This document shows, one piece after another, positions 4,320 to 52,988 of a stretch of DNA of 64,000 nucleotides. The notes beneath the pieces were generated by a model. That model had not been told where the DNA came from and searched no databases. It was given only the letters and a program-made list of their open reading frames with translations. A program made the translations under genes and the position numbers. The stretch covers positions 237,654 to 301,653 of the forward strand of contig JBFLZW010000022.1 in NCBI GenBank assembly GCA_040755755.1, written 5' to 3'. Numbering within the stretch: position 1 is the first letter of the stretch; each line of letters opens with the position of its first letter. This DNA is from a bacterium. GTDB lineage: Bacteria; SZUA-182; DTGQ01.

Positions 4320-7013
4320 CTATACAATCTGACTGCGGGTTTGAACCACATAAAAAGAGCCGTTGGCATACATTCCTTCGATATCCTGCGGGCATTTCAT
4401 GATACCTTCGATCTCTTCAGCCACCTGAGCGATCGAATCAAACAAAAAGCGCTGGAAGCCTGTGTCCCAGAATAGCTTTTCCTGATCGTACCGTACCAGG
4501 ACAGGAGCGGGTTTATTGATAAAATAGCTGTCATACAGCCCGGCCCCCGGAGAGTCGGATAAATCCTCGTCATTGGAATCGGATCGGACGATGCATGATT
4601 CACTCCCGCTTTCATCCTGCCGGGAATCGAAGAGGGCTGTCTGTTTCGAGGGGTAGGAGGTAATCATATGCCGGTGTTCTTTTCTGGTCGAAACAACACC
4701 CCAGGGTGTCCCCGGTGAATTACCGGCCAGGGTTTCACCGAGCCCGACCACAATCTCGGATAATATCTCGGAGCTGCTGCCGGATATCGGGTTATGGGTA
4801 TGGATGATAAATGAATAATCAGCAGGAATGGTCTTTTGAACGAGCACCCTCATATGGACCTGGTCACTCGTGATGTTCCGTGCAAGCCGGCTGAGATAGG
4901 CCCGTTCATTCCATACCGAGCCCCATACCATTTTGATATGGGAAATAAGGGCCTTCTCCAGTGGCTGTGACCAGCGGCTGACAATTCCCTCCTGCCCGGT
5001 GATTTCCTTCTGAATAAACCGGGCAAGATCTGCGGGCACAGTAAGATCGTGGATTACCCCTCGGATGCGGGGCAGGAGATGCGGGTAATTTTCCGGATCA
5101 GAGCAAAGCTGTGACGTTAATTCATTGAATACTGATAGTGATTCGGGGTTGCCGTGAAGCGTCTGTTCAAACACTTCATAGGGTATGACAGCCGAAGATG
5201 GCACCGTGATGAAACTGGAGAGTTTTTCCCGCAGCCTGGCCAGATTGCCTGACTTGGAACCATTGCCCCTGCCGCCGGTGACTCTGCTGTCTTCCCTGTC
5301 TTCCGCAAGAGTGACAGCAATGGCCTTATCCCCTCCGGCAGCAGCCTCACGGCAATGAACCGTGCCGTTTTCGATTGAGACAGTCACTCCTCTGCCCTGA
5401 CACAGGGTAAGTCTTTCAAATGCATCCCGTTCATAGCAGGTGCACAATATGACCCTGGAGCTCCGGCAGCGGATTGCAATATGGGATAATATATCGACAT
5501 CACTCAGGGTGAGTATAGCGCTTGCCCAGGGGGGAATCTCCTCGATGCCCTCCACGGTATTCACCAGCATAATCTGGCTATGGTGGTCCGATGATGTACC
5601 CTGAATGGAACGCAGCGACTCAGCCACGCCGAGCATTCCGGTCGCGCTCCCCCGGCCCTGACTGATGATTTTCCAGCAGCCGACCTGGGCCGTTCTCCTG
5701 ACCATGGGAAAGAGGGTATCGATAAGCTTTGACAGGCACAGGGTATTCTGGCTCCGGACCACTTCCTCGGCAAAATGGGTGATAGAGGATTCACCGATAG
5801 CACAGGATTCTCCGATTGTCCGGGCTTTGGGCTGGATGAACTCAGAGAGCTCATCCGTATACGAATGAATGATCGACTGGATATAGGTCAGGGCAGCCAG
5901 GGCCTGCAATCCCCATTCCCGCGACCATGCATGGCCGTCAGGAACGTATTTTATCCGCCTCCACAATCCGATACAGGAGGCTGTTTTCTCATGGTCGTAG
6001 GTTAACTGGACATTCCGGAGGGTCAGCAGGATCAGGTTCACCAGGTCATCGCCGCTCAGGGTGCGAAGGTCAATTCGCTCGATCGATGCCTTGTAGATAT
6101 TGTCGAGGGCAACATCGATCATGAGCGGATCGCGCGGGCAGTCGCTGCGAAGATAATGCCTTAACCTTTCGCGGCAGTCGATAATCTTTCCCGGCAGCCA
6201 CCAGGCACCGAAGTTATTCTCGACATCTTCCAGCATGGAGAAAAGCTCCCCATCAAACTGCCACCGTGACACGTGCAGGAGGTAATGAAGATTCTGTGAG
6301 CTGCCGTGGATCTGCTTCAATATCCAGAGCAGATGCTTTAAGTCCGGCACCAGTTGCGGCATATACCGGGGCTCATGGGTCAGGGGCCTGGCCATGTTCC
6401 GGAGAAAATCTCTCGATATCCTCCCCCGATCCCATAAGATTTGATAAAAAAAGTCTCGTGAATTCGTTTCCTGAAAGGCGATATAGGCTTCACAAATCGT
6501 GATATCCTCGGAAGTACAATTGCTGTGCAGCTTCTGATGCCACTGTTCGAGAAACGGATCGTCGATCCCGGGCCGATGCCCCTCCCGTATGCCATGACGC
6601 CTCATGATATCCAGAATGAACAGCCGAAGCTCATCTCCATTGCCCCCTCCCCGGGGAATAAAATTGATGATGTTCCGGATAAACACCCGATCGAGTGCCC
6701 TGTCTTTTTCAGGCGGGGAGGAGAGCGTACCGGCATAAGCCCTGGCCAGGGACATCGACAGCTCATTTTGCAGGTGAGATATATCCTTGGTCTGATAGTT
6801 ATGCCTCATGTCCTGCCTGATCTCTTTCAGGGCAAACAGCCTTACATAGGTAAAGACCCAGGCCAGGGCATGAGTGTCAATACCGGGCGTATTGATTATG
6901 CCGTGACAAATGCCGTAATGGTCTAACAGGGACCCGGCCCTTGTGCAGAGCCGCCTGATCTGCTCATCCTGAAGTACCTGCCGGTCCTGCATACTATCAG
7001 AGGTATTATTCAT
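4320..7013 (-). CDS. Alpha-glucan, water dikinase (bacterial GWD-like)
   Basis: The 897-residue product matches the catalytic part of alpha-glucan water dikinase, which transfers the beta-phosphate of ATP to glucosyl residues of starch-like glucan through a phosphohistidine. Seen: WHQKLHSN..SEDITIC (about 157-172), a GWD hallmark; the phosphohistidine region DVDILSHIAIR with His511; then a C-terminal nucleotide-binding half with HTHNPISG, IVVGLGETL, YPSKQ, RSDSNDEDL, AGAGLYDS, CPQDIEG and VVQTRSQ, as in plant enzymes. The N-terminal starch-binding modules of plant GWD are absent, which fits the shorter length. An upstream frame extension to 7238 would overlap the RAMP gene; the ATG at 7013 behind AGGGGGATGG is preferred. 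It lies 64 bp downstream of the Csx10-like gene on the same strand. Confidence 0.88.
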   Translation of the reverse strand: MNNTSDSMQDRQVLQDEQIRRLCTRAGSLLDHYGICHGIINTPGIDTHALAWVFTYVRLFALKEIRQDMRHNYQTKDISHLQNELSMSLARAYAGTLSSPPEKDRALDRVFIRNIINFIPRGGGNGDELRLFILDIMRRHGIREGHRPGIDDPFLEQWHQKLHSNCTSEDITICEAYIAFQETNSRDFFYQILWDRGRISRDFLRNMARPLTHEPRYMPQLVPDLKHLLWILKQIHGSSQNLHYLLHVSRWQFDGELFSMLEDVENNFGAWWLPGKIIDCRERLRHYLRSDCPRDPLMIDVALDNIYKASIERIDLRTLSGDDLVNLILLTLRNVQLTYDHEKTASCIGLWRRIKYVPDGHAWSREWGLQALAALTYIQSIIHSYTDELSEFIQPKARTIGESCAIGESSITHFAEEVVRSQNTLCLSKLIDTLFPMVRRTAQVGCWKIISQGRGSATGMLGVAESLRSIQGTSSDHHSQIMLVNTVEGIEEIPPWASAILTLSDVDILSHIAIRCRSSRVILCTCYERDAFERLTLCQGRGVTVSIENGTVHCREAAAGGDKAIAVTLAEDREDSRVTGGRGNGSKSGNLARLREKLSSFITVPSSAVIPYEVFEQTLHGNPESLSVFNELTSQLCSDPENYPHLLPRIRGVIHDLTVPADLARFIQKEITGQEGIVSRWSQPLEKALISHIKMVWGSVWNERAYLSRLARNITSDQVHMRVLVQKTIPADYSFIIHTHNPISGSSSEILSEIVVGLGETLAGNSPGTPWGVVSTRKEHRHMITSYPSKQTALFDSRQDESGSESCIVRSDSNDEDLSDSPGAGLYDSYFINKPAPVLVRYDQEKLFWDTGFQRFLFDSIAQVAEEIEGIMKCPQDIEGMYANGSFYVVQTRSQIV

Positions 7014-7077: not shown

Positions 7078-8388
7078 TTAACTGGATTTGGCCGGAACTT
7101 CCAGGTGGAAGGGGTCGCATATGAGGATCTGGCCATACCCTTCGCCCCGGTTTTCGCCAATGCCGGACTTTTCAAGATGCTCCAGTGCCTGGAAAACTTT
7201 GGGGCTGATGCCGCCGGGAAACGAGAAAACAAATACACTCCCTCTGGCTATGGCCGGAACCGCCTTGTCGGTTGATTTTCCTCTGCTGTACCAGCCTTCC
7301 ACATACACAGGCCGCGAAAAGGAAATTACTTCCTGGCAGATGGTTGCCTGAAGTGGAAGGTCCTCACCCGCAATCCTGCGGTAAACCCGCTGAAGTTCCT
7401 CTCTCAGAAAAGATGAATCGAGTCTGGTTGCAGGCTTCCCGTTCCGGTCTCTGAGAATGATTTCGGACTGAAGGTTCACGGTGATAAGCATATCAGGTTG
7501 GTGAACCGAGTATTCCTTCTGCATCTGGCGGTATTTCTGGTTGAGCTTCAAGACCCTTTGCCGCAGGGATAATTCATGGTCCTCGATTTCCCGGACCTTG
7601 ACCTCAACCCTTCCTGTTTCCTGATTGCCGATTTCTCCAAGGTGAGTGATACTTTCCAGGGAATCCTTGTACAACCCGATCAGGGACGGATCAGCCGGAA
7701 GAAAAGAGAATCCGAGAAACCAGGTCCGTTCACTGATAAATTCGATGAACCGGCCCCGCTGATCAGTGGAAGTATCTTTTTCTGTGCGGTTGCGGGCGAA
7801 AGTCAATACTGACCCCGGCTGGCAATAGGTCCGGACCGGGATCTCCCGGAAATTGCCGTGGGGTTTGGCATACTCGACCTGATAGGAATCGGCAATTCCA
7901 TGACAAGTGCTGCAATAGAGGGTTCCCTGCTCGATAAGCCGGTAATATGCATCCCGAATCAGGCTCAGGCTTCGCGATGGACGCCCGCTTTGGGTGGAAG
8001 AAGCCAGTACCTGCCGGAATATGACCTGGTTGAGCAGGGTATCGAAGACTCCGTGCTGCTCGTCAAAACTGGTATCCTGCACAAAGCCCGGCTTCCATTT
8101 GCAGCTTTTGGCTGTTATTGGCAGCAGCATGGGAAAGGTATAAGCATTCAGATTGGGATAGCAGTTGGGAAAGACTATCTCCATCCCCCATCGATGAGGA
8201 TCACAGAACAATTGATCGAAGCATCGATTCAGGTAGGACCGGCCCTGGAGTAATTGATCGGTTATCGCGCCCCGCAGGTAAACACCCGGAATGTATCTTC
8301 TCGTCTTCAGGACTTTCCCTGATTCCCATTGTTGGTCCTTTAAAATAATGGAAGAATGATTCTTGACCAGCACACCAATCTTTTTCAT
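7078..8388 (-). CDS. csx10: Csx10-like CRISPR-associated RAMP protein (orphan)
   Basis: A 436-residue RAMP-superfamily protein. Visible features: the N-terminal IPGVYLRGAI (the type III RAMP PGSxLRGA element, about 32-41), CSTC in mid-protein as half of a possible zinc site, a TYCQPGSVLTFARNR segment where Csx10 has its ARNR/T motif, and near the end a glycine-rich loop GIGENRGEGYGQ (about 411-422) followed by CDPFH. This combination is typical of Csx10, the RAMP subunit of type III-D effector complexes that bind crRNA. Start ATG at 8388 has AAAGG 8 bases upstream. No cas10, csm/cmr gene, cas6, cas1 or array is visible in the window, so its role is open. Its only near neighbour on the strand is the glucan dikinase gene. 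Confidence 0.78.
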   Translation of the reverse strand: MKKIGVLVKNHSSIILKDQQWESGKVLKTRRYIPGVYLRGAITDQLLQGRSYLNRCFDQLFCDPHRWGMEIVFPNCYPNLNAYTFPMLLPITAKSCKWKPGFVQDTSFDEQHGVFDTLLNQVIFRQVLASSTQSGRPSRSLSLIRDAYYRLIEQGTLYCSTCHGIADSYQVEYAKPHGNFREIPVRTYCQPGSVLTFARNRTEKDTSTDQRGRFIEFISERTWFLGFSFLPADPSLIGLYKDSLESITHLGEIGNQETGRVEVKVREIEDHELSLRQRVLKLNQKYRQMQKEYSVHQPDMLITVNLQSEIILRDRNGKPATRLDSSFLREELQRVYRRIAGEDLPLQATICQEVISFSRPVYVEGWYSRGKSTDKAVPAIARGSVFVFSFPGGISPKVFQALEHLEKSGIGENRGEGYGQILICDPFHLEVPAKSS

Positions 8389-8609
8389 ACACTATACCTT
8401 TCCTGAAATAATTTCAATAAATCGTAACTATTTCATTGAACGGTAAACTATATCAGTACAAGGGTAATTTGTAAAGTATTAAATGCTGAATTTATGCCAT
8501 AACCGGCTTGGAATTTAACTTTTGCAGGTGAATTCAGGTATGATGGGTGTGGATTAATTGCAATCAAGAGATGATGTATCTCCAGATTCAATTGGCATAA
8601 TTTGACCAA
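8389..8609. other. Intergenic region, AT-rich, no gene seen
   Basis: About 220 bases upstream of the RAMP gene and beyond the terminator of the S74 gene. The sequence is AT-rich and must carry the RAMP-dikinase promoter, but I could not choose convincing -35 and -10 boxes. No direct repeats resembling a CRISPR array or degenerate repeat are present. Confidence 0.5.
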
Positions 8610-8645
8610 AAAAGGGGCAAGGTCAATAATGACCTTGCCCCTTTT
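8610..8645 (-). terminator. Rho-independent terminator of S74 gene
   Basis: A perfect 16-bp stem (AAAAGGGGCAAGGTCA with its complement) around a 4-base loop, 25 bases beyond the S74 gene stop, followed on the minus strand by a run of six T. The same hairpin and its leader sequence recur at 11189-11220. Confidence 0.9.
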
Positions 8646-8669: not shown

Positions 8670-10595
8670 CTATCTGCTCTCCAAAGCCTCGATCCGTGCC
8701 TGTAAAGCTTCAATCTGGGCTTGCTTGGCTTCATCCTTCGCTTTAAGCGCTTCGTTCTGTGCTTTCAGTTCCTTGATTGCCTCAATGAGGTAGGCATTAA
8801 AGCCGTGCGGAAATTGAAGTGACTTTACCTTTTCACCTCCCTTTGCTAAATCCTTATCTTTCCCAATCGGTTCAACTTCCGAGACCCACTCAGGAAATAC
8901 TTTTTCTACTTCCTGTGCAATCAGTCCTGCCTGAGCATCACTCTGATTCCCATGCTCTCCGGGGTTGATCCATTCGAAGGTTACACCTTGTAATTTAGTC
9001 AACCTATCTAAGGCTCCGGTAAGGTTTTGTACATTCTTTTTCAACCTCGCATCAGAAGAATCTGACCAAGATCCACCGCCAGGTTTGCCAGCGCTTCCAT
9101 TAACTTCTAATTTGTATCCCGGGCCCGTCGTGCCAATGCCGACATTACCGTTTCCTAAAATTGACATACGCACTGGTGTGCCACCAATCCCTGAGAATCT
9201 AATTGGTGCAACTGAGCCGGTATTCCAAGTTGTACCAGCCTGTATCCAGGTATCACCACCAGTATAACTAATGAGCCTCATTTTCGATGTCGAAGCTGCT
9301 GTATTATCTATTCTGATCTCAGGGTTAGTGCCTGCCAGATGCAATTTCGCCTCTGGATTCGTCGTCCCAATACCGACGTTGCCGTTTGGCGTAATAACCA
9401 TATCAACATTTGCGTTTGTTCCGGCGCGAAACTTCAGATCGCTGCTTGTTACATCGGCAGTAGCATCGAGATATACGTCATTATCACTATGCATGGTCAA
9501 TACTGGTACGGCAGTTCCTGCCGTGCTTTTCCAATACAGATCTTCGGTATTATCCAAAAGAATACCGTCATAATCTCCACCAGAGACATGGAGTTTCTTT
9601 TCAGGTAAGCTTGTGCTAACGCCAACGTTGCCAACGCTATTCACCAAAATAGACGGGGCTGCCCCACTCTTCCTGATACTTGCAATCGGTTGCTGGTAGG
9701 AAAAAGTAGAACTTGTGAGAGGAGGATTGAAGGCTGTCGAAGTTGTGAGAGAGGTGTTTGAATTAATCCGTTTCACCATCCTTTGTTGTGTACCAACAAT
9801 GATGATATCGCCAATATGCAGTTGAGTGGTAAAACTCGTGCCAGCTCCTGTAACTGTAGTGCCGCTGCTTGTAAGTGTCCCGGTGCCAGGAGAAGTAGAA
9901 GAATTGCCGATAACATCCAGTTTTCTTACCGGATTTGGCGTCCCAATGCCTACATTGTCTGTGCCTGTATGGAGGTATACCCTTGGTGAGGTGCGAAGCC
10001 AGCCGCAGGCAGCATCCTTAGAAGTCAGGGAGAAAGTGATAGAGCCGGGAGTGAGAGAATCGGGAATCTCTGATAGTGTTCCATCCTGAGTCAAAAGCGG
10101 TCCAAGTGATCCATACGGTAACTCAACTCCCTCCAGCGTGCCTGGCGATTCGCTCTCTCCCGTGGACTCGTATCCAGAGGCGGATGAGCTTACTTGATTC
10201 GATGAGCTTATGGGATTAACAATTCCGCTTACCTTCCATTCAGATGGCATTTCGCATTTGATAAAATAGAATGATCCTTCCTGAACAGCGAAATTATTTT
10301 CCAGATAGCCACAGATATACCGGCTCCAATTTCCTCCTATCCATCCATCGATCTCCACACAGCCCCCGCCCTGGGCATTGATGTCCTTACACATCCCTTC
10401 CACATCCTGAAAAGCTGTAGGACTAACCTCCAGAGAGATCAGATTCCAGCCAGCGCTCAATCTCTTGGTAATAGTGACCGGCTCTTGAGATGGTGCCTCT
10501 TCGGCTCGGCAATTACCCCTTATCCCTCCAATTGCCAGAGAAACTGCAACCAAAAACGTCCCCAGCCACCTTACCATAACCTGCTTATTATTCAT
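8670..10595 (-). CDS. Exported tail-fibre-like protein with S74 chaperone domain
   Basis: The 641-residue product begins with a signal peptide ending near NCRAEEA. Residues about 40-130 form a unit with GWNLISL, then come long beta-rich stretches with recurring VGIGTTNP/AKLHL motifs as in tail-fibre and trimeric surface proteins. The C-terminal 120 residues are a peptidase S74 (endosialidase intramolecular chaperone) domain: SDARLKKNVQ with the Ser-Asp autocleavage point, TFEWIN, AGLIAQEVEKVFPE, then a heptad coiled coil (AQIEALQARIEALE). The chaperone helps trimerise the fibre and then releases itself. AGGAG lies 8 bases before the ATG. No phage genes surround it, so a cell-surface fibre is more likely than a prophage tail. 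A partial, broken relative is at 11242-11417. Confidence 0.85.
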   Translation of the reverse strand: MNNKQVMVRWLGTFLVAVSLAIGGIRGNCRAEEAPSQEPVTITKRLSAGWNLISLEVSPTAFQDVEGMCKDINAQGGGCVEIDGWIGGNWSRYICGYLENNFAVQEGSFYFIKCEMPSEWKVSGIVNPISSSNQVSSSASGYESTGESESPGTLEGVELPYGSLGPLLTQDGTLSEIPDSLTPGSITFSLTSKDAACGWLRTSPRVYLHTGTDNVGIGTPNPVRKLDVIGNSSTSPGTGTLTSSGTTVTGAGTSFTTQLHIGDIIIVGTQQRMVKRINSNTSLTTSTAFNPPLTSSTFSYQQPIASIRKSGAAPSILVNSVGNVGVSTSLPEKKLHVSGGDYDGILLDNTEDLYWKSTAGTAVPVLTMHSDNDVYLDATADVTSSDLKFRAGTNANVDMVITPNGNVGIGTTNPEAKLHLAGTNPEIRIDNTAASTSKMRLISYTGGDTWIQAGTTWNTGSVAPIRFSGIGGTPVRMSILGNGNVGIGTTGPGYKLEVNGSAGKPGGGSWSDSSDARLKKNVQNLTGALDRLTKLQGVTFEWINPGEHGNQSDAQAGLIAQEVEKVFPEWVSEVEPIGKDKDLAKGGEKVKSLQFPHGFNAYLIEAIKELKAQNEALKAKDEAKQAQIEALQARIEALESR

Positions 10596-11180: not shown

Positions 11181-11188
11181 CAGGGAAA

Positions 11189-11220
11189 AAGGGGCAAGAT
11201 CATTATTGATCTTGCCCCTT
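11189..11220 (-). terminator. Second copy of the S74-type terminator
   Basis: A 14-bp perfect stem (AAGGGGCAAGATCA and complement) around TTAT, followed on the minus strand by five T. It shares sequence and the preceding TGTCTCTGAAGTAGTTAA leader with the terminator at 8610-8645, with compensating changes within the stem. Confidence 0.85.
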
Positions 11221-48564: not shown

Positions 48565-49272
48565 TTAAGGAGCTGCTTTTATTCTGACTCCTGACTTCTG
48601 ACTTCTGACTTCTGACTTCTGGCTCCTGACTCCTGACTTCTGACTATGGCACAAAGTGCAATTTGCGGCCGCGATATCCCGCTCCTTGTGGCAAAGAAAG
48701 CAGGAGCTTTTCATATTGGGCAGGAACGAACCTTCCCCATGAGCAACATCTCTATGGCAGGGCATACATTTTGAAATCGTGCCGATTTTTTCCATTACCT
48801 GGATATGCTTGACGTGGTTTAAGGTAATCAGCCGGTCTGGCCGGGCATGGTTGTCTATATCTTCTATTTGGTGGCATCCTGATTGAGTGCAGGACACCGG
48901 CTCGCAGATTGTTGGCTGTATCGCTGTTGGTTCTGGTTGTACGAGATTTGCCTGACAATTCCGCGCCGATAAGGAAGAGGGGAAAGAAGGGAAAGTCGGA
49001 TCGAGGAATTCCAGATGAGTGAATGCCGTCTCGACCTGGCTTTGGAGAAAACCCAGGAACCCTGGGCGGGCGTGGCAATGTATACAGGCACTTCCCTGGG
49101 AATTAACCGGGCTGTGTTTGGATTTTCTCCAGGTAGCGGCAATGTTTGATGTTTCATGGCAACGAAGACAAAACCAGGCAGTAGAGGATATTTTGATCCC
49201 AACAACAGTCATCACACTCATAAGGGAGATACCTGAGCCAGCGATAATCAGCAGTTTTTTCAGTTTCCTCAT
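48565..49272 (-). CDS. Multihaem c-type cytochrome (NapC/NirT-like) with repeat-derived tail
   Basis: A 235-residue cytochrome: an N-terminal signal or anchor (LLIIAGSGISLMSVMTVVG), then haem motifs CLRCH, CIHCH, CMPCH, CFLCH and CTLCH plus a degenerate CTQSGCH site, so five CxxCH and one CxxxCH. Such proteins shuttle electrons from quinol or within the periplasm. After the last haem site the chain continues with SQKSGVRSQKSEVRSQKSGVR, encoded entirely by the 7-bp repeat array (seven-residue period), then IKAAP. So the original stop was probably overrun by repeat expansion or insertion. GGGAGG precedes the ATG. No partner enzyme gene is adjacent. Confidence 0.85.
   Translation of the reverse strand: MRKLKKLLIIAGSGISLMSVMTVVGIKISSTAWFCLRCHETSNIAATWRKSKHSPVNSQGSACIHCHARPGFLGFLQSQVETAFTHLEFLDPTFPSFPSSLSARNCQANLVQPEPTAIQPTICEPVSCTQSGCHQIEDIDNHARPDRLITLNHVKHIQVMEKIGTISKCMPCHRDVAHGEGSFLPNMKSSCFLCHKERDIAAANCTLCHSQKSGVRSQKSEVRSQKSGVRIKAAP
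48584..48646. repeat. Heptamer array, nine units of CTGACTY type
   Basis: Nine head-to-tail 7-base units (CTGACTC, CTGACTT, one CTGGCTC) directly inside the 3' end of the cytochrome gene. The outer edge reads ATTCTGACTCCTGACT, as at the arrays at 3154-3167 (two units) and 52905-52974 (ten units, opposite orientation). Confidence 0.95.
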
Positions 49273-52573: not shown

Positions 52574-52904
52574 GCACAATCCTCCAACAAGGCAGTAGAA
52601 AAAAGATGTATACCAGTAGTAAGTGTCTCATGCTCATTCATCAACCTTCCGACCTCAATAAAGCAAGAAGAATACCAGATGAACCAGAGGATACCAGAGA
52701 CCGGGTTTTGGTCTGGACTTTTCCTCCATAAATATTATGGAATATCGATTATAGTAAGACAACGCCGATAAGTTTTGATACCAGGATCGAAGTGTTAAAC
52801 GTTCACTTCGCCTGTTTCAATTATGGAACATGCTCTTATCGATGTTGAGAAATAGACCAGAATTTTCCAAATATGGGACACCGCCGTGCCGAATAAAAAT
52901 AAAG

Positions 52905-52974
<70 letters not shown>

Positions 52975-52988
52975 AATAAAGACAGTAG

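Follow-up and report, generated by a model that had tools for sequence, protein, structure and literature searches.

Csx10, the Cas5 subunit of type III-D CRISPR systems, has a clearly identifiable C-terminal G-rich loop (PMC3150331). In the III-Dv system of Synechocystis, the Cas5 domain is fused to Cas7 and Cas11 and works within an assembled crRNA complex (Cas7-Cas5-Cas11, PDB 8s9t; PMC11026444). Array-less gene clusters derived from type III systems, HRAMP and ARAMP, have been described in haloarchaea and Asgard archaea; they combine diverged Cas5 and Cas7 homologs with nucleases (PMC8730458, PMC12669027). The gene analyzed here resembles those of HRAMP and ARAMP in being a CRISPR-derived RAMP without any array and in being restricted to a certain lineage. 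Unlike them, it is one bacterial gene, traceable to subtype III-D, with no adjoining nuclease: it stands singly between genes for an S74-domain protein and a dikinase and is not part of a RAMP cluster. It was found in a stretch of 64,000 nucleotides, referred to below as the window (G000:C22:237654-301653), of a draft genome (G000) consisting of 5,263,227 bases in 88 contigs and estimated to be 97.6% complete.

Relation of the gene to Csx10

The gene and its downstream neighbor are as follows:

7078 to 8388, minus strand: solitary Csx10-like (type III-D Cas5) RAMP gene, 436 amino acids, pI 8.9
4320 to 7013, minus strand: alpha-glucan water dikinase-like gene (GWD-like, PF22973 and PPDK_N), a neighbor and not a conserved partner

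The preliminary description of this DNA had placed a Csx10-like RAMP gene at 7078-8388; these bounds are exactly those of the open reading frame, and the assignment was confirmed by profile and hhalign matches. The NCBIfam Csx10 model TIGR02674 matched at E=3.2e-34 with 118.8 bits, the curated cutoff being 177.3: as judged from these profiles, the protein is homologous to Csx10 but falls under the equivalog threshold. The best match among the PADLOC Cas5_IIId models had an E-value of 8.5e-35, and other models of the same name span residues 8-430, so that the likeness to the Csx10 family extends over nearly the full length. The profile built from the protein and its only close ortholog (see below) aligned with that of five canonical III-D Csx10s at 99.9% (E=3e-35, 363 columns), which indicates homology and not a chance resemblance between motifs. 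Csm4 and Cmr3, the Cas5 proteins of subtypes III-A and III-B, belong to the same group, and the weak match to Pfam Cas_Cmr3 just passes (22.6 bits versus a cutoff of 21), but the protein is clearly closer to Csx10, and the genome has a separate Csm4. It also differs from canonical Csx10s in carrying a lineage-specific insertion at about residues 119-157.

In the phylogenetic tree, the two orthologs form a single long branch among the III-D Csx10s; the nearby supports are 34-38 and the sister group is not settled. In a PDB sequence search for which this pair was the sole query, Cas7-Cas5-Cas11 and Cmr3 appeared at E-values no better than 1. The AF2 model obtained from the two-sequence alignment has a mean pLDDT of 35, too low to speak for or against any fold. 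Two ferredoxin-like domains (the RAMP/RRM fold) are likely because of the sequence homology to Csx10. A phage or plasmid origin was considered and rejected: the protein had no match in phages or in IMG/VR, the latter having been searched with canonical Csx10s as well, and the lone plasmid match was a canonical III-D locus.

Genomic setting in the two species

That no cas genes or repeat-spacer array occur within 64 kb, as had been noticed at the outset, held in both the window and the contig searches. The array search detected no CRISPR-like array in the window, and the CRISPR repeat of the genome itself had no match there. In the assembly-wide profile search, PF03787 RAMPs over the cutoff were identified only on contigs C33, C61, and C36, and none on C22. 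The assembly has one cas10 and one Cas6, both of them on C33, in a type III-A locus (Cas10/Csm1, Csm2, Csm3, Csm4, Csm5, Cas1, a CARF-PDDEXK protein, and Cas6) accompanied by a 43-repeat array. In subtype III-D, csx10 adjoins Cas7-type RAMPs and cas10; no III-D set of RAMPs, cas10, and Cas6 was found on C22 or elsewhere in this 97.6%-complete genome.

The RAMPs on C61 and C36 were classed as Cmr1/Csm3-like and lie near defense genes. The former (L022:9844-11241, minus strand) combines PF03787 (residues 82-221) with a PDZ domain (PF13180, residues 250-300) in an island carrying PglZ and SNF2-type helicase genes, and is a second kind of non-CRISPR RAMP in this genome. The latter (L023:10356-16902, minus strand) is a short Cmr1-like RAMP of 160 amino acids adjoining homologs of HmaC (DUF499) and HmaB (DUF1156 methylase). 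In the window itself, short tandem arrays of AGGAGTC-like heptamers were observed at 48582-48645 and 52889-52986, in opposite orientation and about 4.3 kb apart.

Among the relatives searched (193 and then 386 genomes, in overlapping sets), the sole close homolog, with 75% identity, comes from G001, the second genome of this genus; the same homolog was retrieved again from the record JAILZY010000006.1 ("MAG: bacterium isolate HOT.CON.50"). There is no other RAMP on its contig, where it lies among ordinary genes that include one for a beta-propeller (LVIVD) protein and a convergent Memo gene. On a separate contig, the sister species encodes a type III-A system that includes a Csm4, and no III-D RAMP, cas10, or Cas6 was found in its genome outside this locus. 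The RAMP ortholog is absent from G002 and G003, two genomes of the same family, the first of which has a III-A-like locus. The genomic position of the gene differs between the two species, since the Memo ortholog of G000 (on C66) has no adjoining RAMP; this difference is compatible with either a move of the gene or a rearrangement of the surrounding genome. Just downstream of the RAMP gene of G001, the 3' end of Memo shows a tandem 92-nt duplication (98%; L024:14842-15067), which is possibly the scar of a rearrangement there. The carriers thus number two genomes, at least one of them a MAG, and both are drafts that are 96-98% complete.

The setting of other Csx10 genes was surveyed in the 386 relatives and in 85 genomes of the phylum to which the closest canonical homolog belongs. 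Each of the 46 further Csx10 loci found is accompanied by another RAMP gene, located on its contig at most 2.6 kb away; since the 85-genome set is a single phylum picked for that homolog, these 46 loci are not a random sample. The neighbors were checked for 32 loci in one set and 14 in the other, the latter being compared by eye. Within the scope of this survey, which Csx10s diverged past the search thresholds would escape, solitary Csx10s occur only in the two members of the genus. Named III-D loci on cyanobacterial plasmids, reached via the query and a canonical homolog, show a similar RAMP-accompanied setting. In L026 (G047) and its relatives L095-L101, the canonical Csx10 is fused behind a Cas7-type RAMP domain in frames of about 634-666 amino acids, a fusion that recurs within one phylum.

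Motifs, selection and expression

The motifs compared with those of canonical Csx10s are located as follows:

8266 to 8295, minus strand: N-terminal RAMP motif YIPGVYLRGA (YIPGIYLREA in the sister), residues 32-41, from codon positions
8101 to 8190, minus strand: most conserved 30-residue stretch between the orthologs (97%), holding the Csx10 PxTAxSC segment, residues 67-96
7747 to 7824, minus strand: degenerate remnant of RxAINRxxxxAxxxLLY, with "ARNR", residues 189-214, the least conserved stretch (27%)
7609 to 7641, minus strand: first G-loop, LGEIGNQETGR in place of the canonical LGxGxSRGxGxV, residues 250-260
7258 to 7296, minus strand: position of the canonical GWNxxWxLPK, here GWYSRGKSTDKAV, 4 residues shorter in the sister, residues 365-377
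7126 to 7161, minus strand: retained C-terminal glycine-rich loop IGENRGEGYGQI, residues 410-421

The orthologous pair keeps the RAMP core, with PGxYLR, PxTAxSC, HGxxD, CxxC, and the C-terminal G-loop; the residues C96, H112, C159, and C162 align with Cys/His residues of canonical Csx10s and are retained. Three elements are lost from the pair: AINRxxxxAxxxLLY, RxRG in the first G-loop, and, of GWNxxWxLPK, the residues NxxWxLPK; the consensus of these three motifs was derived in this analysis from canonical loci. The preliminary description had rested on three motifs, which fared differently. The Csx10 glycine loop GIGENRGEGYGQ is present and 90% conserved between the orthologs. The PGxxLRGA start exists in G000 as PGVYLRGA, but the glycine of RGA is replaced by Glu in the sister, and the letters of the ARNR segment, although present in G000, belong to the degenerate remnant and are not conserved in the sister.

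As a control, we used seven canonical Csx10 pairs with 64-77% overall identity, some of which share a member. The identity over the AINR motif was 31% in the orphan pair (72% overall) versus 84-100% in six of the seven canonical pairs and 54% in the seventh (L064/L070); a further canonical pair, L058/L059 (80% overall), gave 68%. The figures for GWNxxWxLPK were 40% versus 90-100%, and those for the C-terminal G-loop 90% versus 70-95%. This contrast depends partly on the alignment, since the motif columns were set on a canonical sequence and the orphan alignment is uncertain there (29 columns with gaps versus 19). A column-shuffle test using the orphans alone, independently of any canonical sequence, located the 40-column window of lowest identity at residues 179-214, over the AINR region (p=0.001), and that of highest identity at residues 45-84 (p=0.02). 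The lost elements may serve filament assembly or crRNA binding. The loss of the first G-loop does not by itself exclude complex assembly, since the Cas5 domain of the functional III-Dv complex, which belongs to the same group, is changed there too (RIGQSKKDQYG in 8s9t_A, also without RxRG); unlike the orphan, it has kept WxxxWxLP.

The reading frame is intact in both species. Between the orthologs, dN is 0.17-0.18 and dS 1.36-1.50, giving a dN/dS of 0.11-0.13 by both NG86 and YN00, an approximate value since dS is near saturation, yet one far from 1; changes at codon positions 1, 2, and 3 number 81, 64, and 199. The signals found upstream of the gene are:

8447 to 8475, minus strand: predicted sigma70-type promoter, TTTACA-17-TATAGT with a TG preceding the -10, some 60 nt ahead of the start
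8610 to 8645, no strand assigned: perfect 16-bp hairpin with a T-tract after it, terminator-like, separating the transcript of the S74 gene upstream from that of the RAMP gene

A matching promoter layout (TTTACA-17-TATCAT) lies upstream of the ortholog in the sister. The dN/dS shows strong purifying selection and, together with the conserved promoter, indicates that the gene is not a decaying remnant. It looks like an independent transcription unit, from which read-through into the dikinase gene is possible. No Rfam RNA was detected close to it. The hairpin at 8610-8645 and another at 11187-11220 are near-identical (GGGGCAAGGTCA type), terminator-like, and 94% complementary to each other, and bracket the S74-domain gene at 8670-10595.

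Possible roles of a solitary Csx10

Two possibilities had been put forward in the preliminary description: that a III-D complex is encoded at some other place, or that the RAMP acts by itself. The assembly searches speak against the first, while the solitary ortholog, the purifying selection, and the lost signature motifs speak for the second. We therefore favor, with a probability of about 0.55, a type III-D Cas5 exapted at the level of the genus, most likely as a stand-alone RNA-binding protein. Repurposing is probable because the gene stands alone in two genomes without a III-D complex, is strongly selected, and has lost motifs. The points in favor are the Csx10 homology, the absence of III-D, the solitary ortholog, the survey (46/46), the dN/dS, the promoter, and the pattern of constraint; against it weigh the small number of carriers (n=2) and the first G-loop, also altered in the functional III-Dv. 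In the ancestor of the genus, a Csx10 would have stayed on, or been captured, without the rest of the effector complex, and would then have been kept for another job. This basic protein (pI about 8.9) might bind RNA via the RAMP/RRM surface and the C-terminal G-loop, and would have given up capping Cas7 filaments assembled on III-D crRNA. Its target would most likely be a specific RNA, on which it would act by itself or together with a partner encoded at an unlinked site, the outcome being regulation or defense. To our knowledge, no Cas5 subunit is known to work alone, and neither a class 1 effector reduced to a single RAMP nor a lone Csx10 was found described in the open-licence literature. 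Slightly less than even odds can be given to a Cas5 subunit having become a stand-alone non-CRISPR RNA-binding protein or serving another immune system as a single-gene accessory.

The orphan might instead act in trans on the type III-A system, for instance by taking the Cas5 place in the III-A complex or by binding the crRNA tag and so modulating that complex. Since both genomes encode III-A with Cas6 and Cas10, crRNAs should be available, and G000 has the 43-repeat array. We consider this unlikely, however: both III-A loci already have a Csm4, the orphan has degenerate forms of those motifs that complex-forming Csx10s conserve best, and the co-occurrence is not specific, since G002 has its III-A-like locus without the orphan. 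It is rather improbable that the gene is the remnant of a lost III-D locus drifting toward loss. The degenerate motifs, the solitary state, and the restriction to one genus in the sample would fit such a history, but the selection data disfavor it: the frame is intact twice over, dN/dS is low with dS above 1.3, the promoter is conserved, and the core stretch is 97% identical.

There is very little chance that the orphan belongs to a III-D complex whose other genes escaped both assemblies, draft though these are. The assembly-wide RAMP, cas10, and Cas6 searches showed only the unlinked III-A locus, which has a separate Csm4, and the two Cmr1-like RAMPs in other defense islands, the sister likewise has III-A only, the orphan does not have the signature motifs of complex-forming Csx10s, and all the other Csx10 genes surveyed adjoin a RAMP gene. 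That the RAMP protein works with the downstream dikinase, binding its mRNA for example, is hardly tenable: the two genes are indeed co-oriented, as had been stated, with a gap of 64 nt (likely ATG of the dikinase at 7013), but in G001 the RAMP gene adjoins the convergent Memo gene and no close dikinase ortholog exists, whereas G002 and G003 carry full-length dikinase orthologs (61-64% identity) without the RAMP. A RAMP-dikinase operon was rejected on this uncoupled presence, and the adjacency is coincidental.

The exaptation of CRISPR parts is a recognized theme, but HRAMP and ARAMP, the cases documented for type III, are cassettes of several genes. The annotation of a lone csx10 does not imply that a III-D system is present. 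A single Cas5 descendant that is selected and separately transcribed would, if the favored reading is true, be a minimal case for RAMP RNA specificity outside a CRISPR complex.
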